The translations under genes were made by a program, and so were the position numbers. A DNA stretch of 64,000 nucleotides from Pedobacter sp. (GTDB taxonomy: Bacteria; Bacteroidota; Bacteroidia; Sphingobacteriales; Sphingobacteriaceae), in the NCBI RefSeq assembly GCF_031119335.1, contig NZ_JAVHXT010000002.1, positions 62,001-126,000 of the forward strand, read 5' to 3'. Of the stretch, positions 26,801 to 35,683 are shown one piece after another. Under the pieces are notes generated by a model, which saw nothing but the letters and a program-made list of their open reading frames with translations, was not told the DNA's origin and ran no database searches. How positions within the stretch are numbered: position 1 is the stretch's first letter; each line of letters begins with the position of its first letter.

Positions 26801-27191
26801 TTTTTGGCTGGTTGTTTTATGCCTGTTCTGACAGCTTAAATGTCACTTGGTTTAATGGCGATATAAAATAAGCTTTAGGTCAATATCATTAAGCAAAAAA
26901 AATTAACTAGTTAGCAGGGACGCCAACGTCCGCAAAATCAAGTATTGGAGTCTTCGCCAACGCTTAACTTAATGACATTTAGCTTTAGGCAGGGCTAATT
27001 TTGCAAAGCAAAGATGGCTTTGTTAATTAAACCTTATTGTAGCGAGCACGTAGCGAAGTGCAACAAGCGAAGTAAAGCGAAAAGAAGGACTGGTTTTGCC
27101 AAGATTCACCGACATTGTTTTTCAAACGATGTGATGTAAAAAATCCATTCCTCATTTTTCTAAAAACATTTTCAATTCAAAAAATAATTCA
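26801..27191. other. Non-coding gap before the fatty-acid cluster
   Basis: No gene seen. It holds a repeat element (26882-26979), followed by a stretch of GTAGCGAGCACGTAGCGAAG-type words around 27030-27080. The promoter box of the downstream operon is at its right edge. Confidence 0.5.
26882..26979. repeat. Diverged relative of the 17-bp-TIR element
   Basis: The right end CTTAACTTAATGACATT (26963-26979) is identical to the right terminal repeat of the element at 34691-34852. The left end AATATCATTAAG (26882-26893) matches its left terminal repeat with one change but is truncated. Inside is GGACG/CGTCC around CCAA (26918-26931) and a second CGCCAACG at 26955-26962. Confidence 0.7.
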
Positions 27192-34060: not shown

Positions 34061-34591
34061 TTATTCCTTGTTCCTTAATCTAATTTCAAACAAATTCAAA
34101 GTAATACCTTCATAATGCTTAGGCAAACCGCTGTTTGGAGCTATTTTAATTTCGCCAACATGGTTAAAACCGCAGCTAGTGTAATATTTCAACAAACGCT
34201 CATTATCTGCCCAAGTATCCATACGTATGTAATCTAATGGCTTGGTTTTACTGTATCCCTTTACCCAATCGATAATGACCTTCACAAAACCATAACCACG
34301 ATATTCGGGATGCGTTACAATACGATGAATGTATACCGCACCCTCATCGTCTTTACCTAACCAAATCTGCGGATCGCTGTAAGTTACGGCAAAAATGCCA
34401 GCCACCTTTCCATCTACCAAAATTTTATACTGCCTACCATCAGCAATTTCCTCCTTCACCAATTCCCTATCGAAACCTTGCCATTGCTTAGATGAAACCT
34501 TTTTTTGATGCTCAATGGCCAAATCGTAAAACTCGAAAATGGTATCGATATCATTTGGCGTACTGTTAAGTACCTGATTGGAATTTTGCAT
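34061..34591 (-). CDS. GNAT-family N-acetyltransferase
   Basis: 176 residues from MQNSNQVLNSTPND. A longer form starting at 34672 has a Cys-rich tail that is not family-like, and a TATTTTTG box overlaps its coding region, so the short start is preferred. The GNAT acetyl-CoA loop is VYIHRIVTHPEYRGYGFVKVIIDW (R/Q-x-x-G-x-G/A as RGYGF). The acceptor substrate is unknown. Confidence 0.87.
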   Translation of the reverse strand: MQNSNQVLNSTPNDIDTIFEFYDLAIEHQKKVSSKQWQGFDRELVKEEIADGRQYKILVDGKVAGIFAVTYSDPQIWLGKDDEGAVYIHRIVTHPEYRGYGFVKVIIDWVKGYSKTKPLDYIRMDTWADNERLLKYYTSCGFNHVGEIKIAPNSGLPKHYEGITLNLFEIRLRNKE

Positions 34592-34594
34592 GGT

Positions 34595-34602
34595 CAAAAA
34601 TA
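34595..34602 (-). promoter_or_regulatory. -7 box next to the GNAT start codon
   Basis: The minus strand reads TATTTTTG, an exact consensus match, ending 3 bp before the ATG at 34591. Transcription would begin at or next to the A of the ATG, implying a leaderless mRNA. Poly-T makes a chance match easier than elsewhere. Confidence 0.5.
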
Positions 34603-34690
34603 GTAAAGATTTTTTTGAAGCGCAGTTACAGTACAAATATTTACATCTGTCCTTCTTTTCGCTATATTTCAAACTCGCTATTGCTCGTTC

Positions 34691-34852
34691 AATGTCATTA
34701 AGTTAAGGAATTAAAAGACCTCGAAGAGGTCAAATATTTATAGAAATAATAAGTAAAATGCCATTCGACCCCGATGGGGTCGAACAAAAACGCTAGCAAT
34801 TCATGCGCTATAAACATTAGAATCCTACGGATTCTCTTAACTTAATGACATT
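34691..34852. mobile_element. Miniature TIR element with three triloop hairpins
   Basis: Perfect 17-bp terminal inverted repeats: AATGTCATTAAGTTAAG (34691-34707) and CTTAACTTAATGACATT (34836-34852). Inside are three perfect hairpins with 3-nt loops: GACCTC/GAGGTC (34717-34731), TTCGACCCC/GGGGTCGAA (34764-34784) and AGAATCC/GGATTCT (34819-34835). No coding capacity, so it would need a transposase in trans. GCTCGTT occurs 1 bp outside the left end (34683-34689) and 4 bp outside the right end (34857-34863), a possible target duplication. Confidence 0.75.
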
Positions 34853-34965
34853 GATCGCTCGTTTGAAGATGCCGCTACAATAAGGGCTATGAACCTGGGT
34901 CTGTACAAAGCAAACCCCCTCATCATGCCTCGCAATGAATGAGAACTTAACCCTCTATACGACAA
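34853..34965. other. Non-coding remainder before psd terminator
   Basis: About 110 bp between the miniature element and the psd terminator. I see no gene and no clear repeat in it. Confidence 0.4.
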
Positions 34966-34999
34966 TAAAAAAGCCTTGCAAGTATCAACTCACAAGGCT
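34966..34999 (-). terminator. psd terminator
   Basis: On the minus strand AGCCTTG (34993-34999) pairs with CAAGGCT (34972-34978) around a 14-nt loop, followed by a run of six T. It begins 24 bp after the psd stop. Confidence 0.88.
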
Positions 35000-35023
35000 C
35001 TCGAATATCTATTTAAGCAGAAA

Positions 35024-35683
35024 CTAGCTCAATTCACCCAACACTGTAATTCCACCTTTAACAACTTGGTTAAGTTCTAAATTAATTTTAGTACCTAATG
35101 GCAAGAAAAGATCTACCCTAGAGCCAAATTTAATAAAACCGAATTGCTCGTTTTGTGTAACCTGATCGCCTTCTTTCACATACCAAACAATACGACGGGC
35201 CAATGCACCAGCAATTTGACGGTACAACACCGGCGCACCGTTTTGATGTTCTACAACAACTGTTGTACGTTCGTTCTCAGTACTCGATTTAGGGTTCCAA
35301 GCAGCTAAATATTTACCTGGATGGTATTTGAAGAACTTAACCACTCCAGAAATTGGGTTACGGTTAATATGCACATTTACTGGCGACATAAAGATAGAAA
35401 CCTGTAAACGTCTGTCTTTAAAATACTCGCCTTCTTCAGTCTCTTCAATTACTACCACTTTACCGTCTGCAGGGCAAATAATCAAATTATCGCCATTGGT
35501 AAAAGTACGCTTCGGATTTCTAAAGAACTGCAGTACCGTAACAAACAATGCGAAAGAAAGGATGTAAACAAACCATCTTAGCACAAACATATCAGCAAAT
35601 CTATATTCTACTACGGCATTGATGATAAATATAAAAAGTACGGTCAGGGCAATTGAGGTATATCCTTCTTTATGTATGGTCAT
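35024..35683 (-). CDS. psd: Phosphatidylserine decarboxylase (short, archaeal-type)
   Basis: 219 residues. Two membrane segments (about 9-26 and 34-53), then the beta-rich core with ICPADGKV and SPVNVHINR. The self-cleavage site is Gly187-Ser188 in IKFGSRVD; Ser188 becomes the pyruvoyl group. It makes phosphatidylethanolamine at the inner membrane. The length fits the type II/archaeal-like Psd without the long N-terminus of E. coli. Confidence 0.95.
   Translation of the reverse strand: MTIHKEGYTSIALTVLFIFIINAVVEYRFADMFVLRWFVYILSFALFVTVLQFFRNPKRTFTNGDNLIICPADGKVVVIEETEEGEYFKDRRLQVSIFMSPVNVHINRNPISGVVKFFKYHPGKYLAAWNPKSSTENERTTVVVEHQNGAPVLYRQIAGALARRIVWYVKEGDQVTQNEQFGFIKFGSRVDLFLPLGTKINLELNQVVKGGITVLGELS

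Follow-up and report, generated by a model that had tools for sequence, protein, structure and literature searches.

The 164-bp element at 34690-34853 of the window, by which we mean the whole 64,000-nt stretch of DNA analysed, is best explained as a chimera in which a repeat unit linked to Y1 transposases is the only cargo between DDE-type ends of the IS4 subgroup; we put the probability of this reading at roughly 0.85. At the level of sequence it rests on the terminal repeats, the target duplication, an autonomous insertion sequence with matching ends, copies of the repeat unit free of ends, the conserved structure of that unit and its linkage to Y1 genes. Each half of the chimera is of a known kind, and two mobile systems would be joined here in one small element.

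The element is non-autonomous. Its termini are perfect inverted repeats of 18 bp, CAATGTCATTAAGTTAAG, with the left end at 34690-34707 (plus strand) and its exact inverted copy, the right end, at 34836-34853 (minus strand). A sequence-only reading of this DNA had described exact 17-bp inverted repeats at 34691-34707 and 34836-34852; these are present, and C34690 is complementary to G34853, so that the element extends one base further at both ends than first described. The same reading had taken the word GCTCGTT just outside both ends for a possible target-site duplication. The duplication is real and its length was underestimated: the word is part of a 10-bp duplication whose left copy, ATTGCTCGTT (34680-34689), is identical in 9/10 positions to its right copy, ATCGCTCGTT (34854-34863). 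Between the ends lie three perfect hairpins with 3-nt loops and arms of 6 bp (34717-34731), 9 bp (34764-34784) and 7 bp (34819-34835), just as they had been described, the third of which abuts the right end. The first hairpin is followed by an A/T box, AATATTTATAG (34733-34743, plus strand), that pairs with a second box, CTATAAACATT (34808-34818, plus strand), inverted relative to the first. Triloop hairpins (stem of at least 6 bp, 3-nt loop) number 16 in the window, and three occur within 130 nt at this element only. Dinucleotide shuffling of the interior (5000 shuffles) gave at least one such hairpin in 166 shuffles, at least two in 3 and three in none. Compared with its own shuffles, the element folds with a z-score of -7.8 as plus-strand DNA and of -9.1 as minus-strand RNA.

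The element sits between two minus-strand ORFs, 34061-34672 and 35024-35683, which putatively encode an acetyltransferase and a phosphatidylserine decarboxylase, respectively. Coding sequence was ruled out, as no ORF of at least 60 aa overlaps 34690-34853, and so was a known RNA family, as Rfam 15 gave no match at gathering score inside the element. The sole Rfam match was sub-threshold and outside the element (ctRNA_pGA1, 34957-35035, minus strand, 25.4 bits, cut-off 45); this hairpin-like stretch, which follows the ORF at 35024, is perhaps a terminator. A tblastn search of 29 relatives' loci found the ORF 34061-34672 beside the gene 35024-35683 in none of them, and no empty site was found.

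The sequence-only reading had proposed a mobile family moved by a transposase supplied from elsewhere, and had held that ends found nowhere else with a similar interior, or orthologous loci that all carry the element with coding-like conservation, would speak against it. Neither was encountered. In the source genome the 17-bp end occurs at 29 places with up to two mismatches, 19 of them exact and many of them arranged as facing pairs, compared with 2 places for the reversed pattern, and at five further places a similar three-hairpin interior lies between two ends. The 18-bp end (up to one mismatch) was found in 16 of 41 genomes, the source genome counted. Table 1 of PMC2266710 gives, for subgroup IS4, a length of 1400-1650 bp, ends of the form -AATR--------WTW---- and direct repeats of 10-13 bp; CAATGTCATTAAGTTAAG matches every named position of that signature, and the duplication of 10 bp (9/10 in the focal copy) lies within the range tabulated there. 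IS231, considered as the relative, gave way to subgroup IS4. A second element with the same ends is present in the window at 26881-26980 (minus strand; locus L008, 1419-1518); it is decayed, has GTTGGCG palindromes as cargo and shows a 9/10 duplication.

Across 27 end pairs, all of which were kept even though a small number are nested, mis-registered or doubtful (L004, L006, L032, L037), the two 10-bp flanks agreed on average at 5.96/10 positions, as against 3.01/10 when the left flank of one element was crossed with the right flank of another. Agreement reached at least 8/10 in 12 pairs and at least 9/10 in 9, a level attained by none of the crossed pairs, and of the duplication lengths from 8 to 12 tried over the 27 pairs only 10 stood out. 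Eight of the 27 pairs agree at 3/10 or fewer, which counts against the chimeric reading. Taken together, these flanks suggest that IS4-ended elements move or once moved. Several insertions (L006, L017, L278, L325, L330, L342) are found inside or next to short palindromes with the pattern CCC-N-GGG, and the transposase may for this reason favour palindromic targets.

A transposase with matching ends, which the first reading had suggested looking for, was found in the congener G005 (locus L048), where two such ends bound an IS that is flanked by GGTTGAAACC as a perfect 10-bp duplication and whose 1,447 bp fall within the length range tabulated for subgroup IS4. This IS encodes a transposase of 444 aa that is assigned to the IS4 (DDE) family by NCBIfam (NF033592, 3.3e-36, over the cut-off), has no match in Pfam and PDB searches, and carries YRLKWAIETSYSHQK, the YREK motif with K replacing R. 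Remnants of transposases of this type abut the end in three more genomes (G006, G015, G035). The source genome, a draft of 95% completeness, gave no matching IS4 transposase at E 1e-10 and no NF033592 match at 1e-5; such a gene is no defining feature of a non-autonomous element, yet its absence bears on present mobility. Among the matches listed from named records, five end pairs lie 1.4-1.7 kb apart with perfect 10-bp duplications (three in Allobaculum, one in Aquimarina, one in Clostridium), and a sixth, in Paenibacillus, is without one flank. Judged by motif letters rather than family assignment, the longest ORF carries the YREK motif in four of these six listed pairs (L292, L322, L324, L347); in the other two, the longest ORF is 165 aa (L343) or the motif letters are doubtful (L294).

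The ends and the interior of the focal element are separable, as the distribution of their copies shows, a point that lay beyond the first, sequence-only reading. We built a covariance model of the interior (R1) from nine module copies of the source genome aligned without ends, two of which (L066, L070) have no ends in that genome. R1 matches 36 of 247 genomes of the class and 29 of 135 genera. Among copies found by R1, which lean towards its structure, the order hairpin, TTTATAG box, hairpin, CTATAAA box, hairpin is kept, stem sequences vary, and the middle hairpin is doubled or missing at some loci; in a tree of the module copies, 12 of 13 inner branches are open. Besides the places with two ends, the source genome has one more three-hairpin place with a single end and two others that are cut short or interrupted. 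At L004 (G000:C10:331172-331361), an element of the GTTGGCG type with the same ends interrupts a three-hairpin element that is missing its right part. Contigs C3, C8, C16 and C20 of the source genome end within or beside three-hairpin elements, so copy number is probably undercounted.

The module is linked to Y1 (HUH) transposase genes. Among the matches listed, a cluster of R1 matches lies within 2 kb of a Y1 (PF01797) gene in 9 of 23 genomes, compared with 0.35 expected under uniform placement (P 3.7e-13), the 23 being those of the 36 R1-positive genomes in which module coordinates and Y1 genes could be compared. The test is not circular, since none of the nine source copies behind R1 is near a Y1 gene. 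In the same 23 genomes, most module clusters among the matches listed (55 of 64) have no listed Y1 gene nearby, and the focal copy itself is not beside one. Elsewhere in the source genome, a module at C10:480888-481013 has its first hairpin 83 nt past a Y1 gene of 153-156 aa, whose protein NCBIfam classes as IS200/IS605-like with the REP-associated model below cut-off; in G005, seven module matches, one of them short, come after a Y1 gene. Near-regular tandem arrays of the module stand beside Y1 genes at L129, L116, L114, L118 and L263, with steps of about 165 bp in G200 and 260 bp in G109, and at L114 an ORF of 283 aa runs through the array. IS200/RAYT and DDE transposases had at first been named as alternatives; the evidence indicates both kinds, in that the ends point to a DDE enzyme of subgroup IS4 and the interior to a Y1 enzyme resembling those of IS200/RAYT.

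The Y1 proteins examined at module-bearing genes have the motifs DHIH (NHIH in L116) and Y---Q--HH, the latter being given in the parts of PMC6006769 consulted as the signature of TnpA-Y1 subclass 1.2. When 30 Y1 loci were sampled independently of R1, model R2 (E 1e-4) matched 5 of 22 Q--HH loci, or 4 of 21 once L175, itself a row of the R2 alignment, is left out, compared with 0 of 7 loci without HH and 0 of 1 unassigned. In the set of Y1 loci chosen by R1, R2 matched 8 of 22 Q--HH loci, six of the eight being rows of its alignment, 0 of 3 loci with an NP motif (two YIHQNP) and 0 of 5 unassigned; R1 alone, which derives from source-genome copies away from Y1 genes, matched 7 of the 22 at E 1e-6. 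Of 32 control loci, R2 matched two, each of which is an IS4-bounded copy in G029. Subclass-1.2 loci lacking a match to the module models make up 17 of 22 in the independent sample and 14 of 22 in the R1-chosen set, and many of these have other palindromes. Overall, 42 Q--HH genes are flanked by 78 GC-rich hairpins, where shuffles yield 5.3 and the far ends of 37 of the loci contain 14, and the same hairpin stands on both sides of the gene in 7 of the 42 loci versus 0. At other Y1 loci there were 5 flanking hairpins in 6 loci without HH and 7 in 2 NP (class-2) loci. Some Q--HH genes have no three-hairpin module (L113, L120, L132, L133, L158, L172) and often have a palindrome of their own on both sides, which suggests one repeat per enzyme. 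As judged from this linkage, the interior of the focal element is probably a single-strand-DNA substrate of a subclass-1.2 Y1 enzyme.

The most serious competitor is an ordinary MITE, that is, an internally deleted element of subgroup IS4 whose interior became palindromic by chance or selection, so that its likeness to a Y1 repeat has no bearing on its origin. In favour of such an origin, ends, duplications and an autonomous IS account for mobility without the interior, and the same ends serve many unrelated cargoes. We nevertheless regard it as improbable because the module recurs in unchanged order but free of ends, both in the source genome and across 36 of 247 genomes, and adjoins Y1 genes far more often than chance would allow. 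An interior that had arisen by chance would bear no match to a repeat family that exists independently of it.

Still less probable, in our judgement, is that the ends are incidental and that a Y1 enzyme moved the focal copy, in the manner of a REP, into an older IS4-type MITE. Y1-linked modules are indeed widespread and full-length Y1 genes are present in the source genome, but the duplication (9/10) lies outside the 18-bp ends, and the same module is found with ends at other places. Transposition of the IS200/IS605 Y1 type is not known to leave a target duplication, and a duplication outside the ends therefore implies that the last move was made by the ends. The first entry of the module into a MITE may possibly have been by Y1 action.

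The structure of the module is conserved. Of the cells in 24 diverse copies, 93.6% are paired, and 18 of 28 pairs show two-sided changes, a number reached by 0 of 500 shuffles; the count uses copies found by R1 and so leans towards the structure of R1. Changes in the stems are mostly two-sided (69 two-sided cells against 8 one-sided), which fits DNA hairpins, or correction of one arm by the other, better than RNA. That the element is a structured RNA or transcription signal acting in place between two genes of the same strand, with the repeats as copies of a regulator, is accordingly very unlikely, for although the strong minus-strand RNA fold, the conserved structure and the position between two minus-strand ORFs would suit it, Rfam has no match within the element, the stem changes are of the kind expected more for DNA, and the copies are scattered over unrelated sites, many of them flanked by target duplications.

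The chimera of Y1-linked module and IS4-subgroup ends recurs beyond the source genome. The congener G381 also carries it, in a copy whose right end is exact and whose left end has decayed. At E 1e-6 the focal element finds matches in 4 of 201 genomes of the family, the source counted, of which G005 and G386 match parts of the module only. In G029, which belongs to another family, a multi-hairpin unit of similar design (R2, E 2.7e-5) is enclosed by exact ends, outside which stands a perfect 10-bp duplication. Quite different palindromes are found between the same ends in other genomes. Scanning of named genomes gave the exact 18-bp end in at least 118 stretches, 80 of which were examined in detail; about 7 are expected in such a collection from base counts alone, and single matches may therefore be due to chance. 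Among the matches listed, end pairs with good duplications come from Bacteroidota, Bacillota (L311, L312, L319) and one record of Pseudomonadota (L297). We pooled 66 elements, in which some places are counted repeatedly, and scored one representative of each cargo cluster: the interior is strongly structured (z of -3 or below) in 17 of 27 unrelated clusters, compared with 4 of 54 flanks (P 8e-8). The cargo of L297, with a z of -2.9, falls just short of that threshold. The remaining 10 of 27 clusters lack strong structure; palindromic cargo is thus frequent but not universal.

In the mechanism that we propose, an IS4-subgroup transposase made elsewhere would bind the 18-bp ends, cut the element out and paste it in with a 10-bp stagger, as the ends and duplications suggest. 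The module inside would be a target or substrate on single strands for a subclass-1.2 Y1 protein, a role to which its linkage and structure point. Presumably the module was taken in between ends that were already in circulation, perhaps by Y1-driven insertion into an older MITE; alternatively, the ends may have formed around a resident module. As a guess, the palindromic interior might draw the two ends together and so aid movement. More tentatively, and as a proposal that we think considerably more likely to be wrong than right, small elements of the IS4 subgroup that keep an almost invariant 18-bp end could serve generally to carry REP-like palindromes from genome to genome and even across phyla, with the DDE enzyme importing a palindrome and the palindrome's own enzyme (for example a subclass-1.2 Y1), if any, multiplying it locally. 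If this were true, palindromic repeats without a transposase of their own would gain a way to spread.

A search of the literature, with most subscription papers and supplements outside its scope, gave no report of a subclass-1.2 repeat and none of such repeats between IS4-subgroup ends; searches on repeat strings of the module and on repeats of these bacteria returned nothing on point. For subclass 1.2, the parts of PMC6006769 consulted have a table entry of 'no' for repeats and a text statement that typical terminal IS200 structures are generally lacking. A Y1/HUH subclass described there without an associated repeat thus appears to have one. Its architecture of three triloop hairpins and two A/T boxes is directly testable with purified protein and single-stranded DNA, and the enclosure of many unrelated palindromes by the mobile ends of one DDE subgroup is a testable route for the spread of palindromes that lack a transposase.

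Several known systems resemble one or the other half of the element. One cargo between the same ends (L055) is a CGTCATTGCGAGG...GAAGCAATC palindrome, which we read, from its tag alone, as a repeat of the CGTC type described in PMC3733652, where, in the portion consulted, such repeats are without a reported dedicated transposase. A palindrome of this type, CGTCATTGCGAGGNACGAAGCAATC, has 148 copies in the source genome and 129 in G017 (up to three mismatches), many as close inverted pairs. In contrast to the element described here, the CGTC-type repeat spreads without IS4 ends: G017 has none of them (up to one mismatch), and we therefore reject the ends as a general multiplier of that repeat. 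The nearest named relative in the plasmid collection is ISPa1635, with which the transposases are about 30% identical; one copy of it has ends that start CAATGTCATCAAC on both sides, although a duplication is not visible at the copy examined. With subgroup IS4, as tabulated in PMC2266710, the element shares the end signature, the 10-bp duplication and, through its 1,447-bp partner, an IS4-family transposase, but it is 164 bp long and geneless, and what it carries is one whole unit belonging to a different repeat family.

The module is most like the REP/REPIN sequences and their RAYT (TnpA-REP) enzymes, in that short DNA hairpins, dispersed or in arrays, adjoin a gene for a Y1/HUH transposase. 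A GTAG-type REP was ruled out, since none of the three hairpins has GTAG or GTGG at its foot on the given strand, and so were class-2 TnpA-REP systems (Y---NP, including subclass 2.6 of Bacteroidetes), since 0 of 3 NP loci carry the module. Whereas REPs have one or two hairpins and a GT[AG]G foot, the module has three hairpins and two A/T boxes; the gene linked to it, unlike those of RAYT systems, is of subclass 1.2 (Y---Q--HH), for which the table in PMC6006769 lists no REP; and the focal unit, unlike any of these, lies between DDE-type ends.
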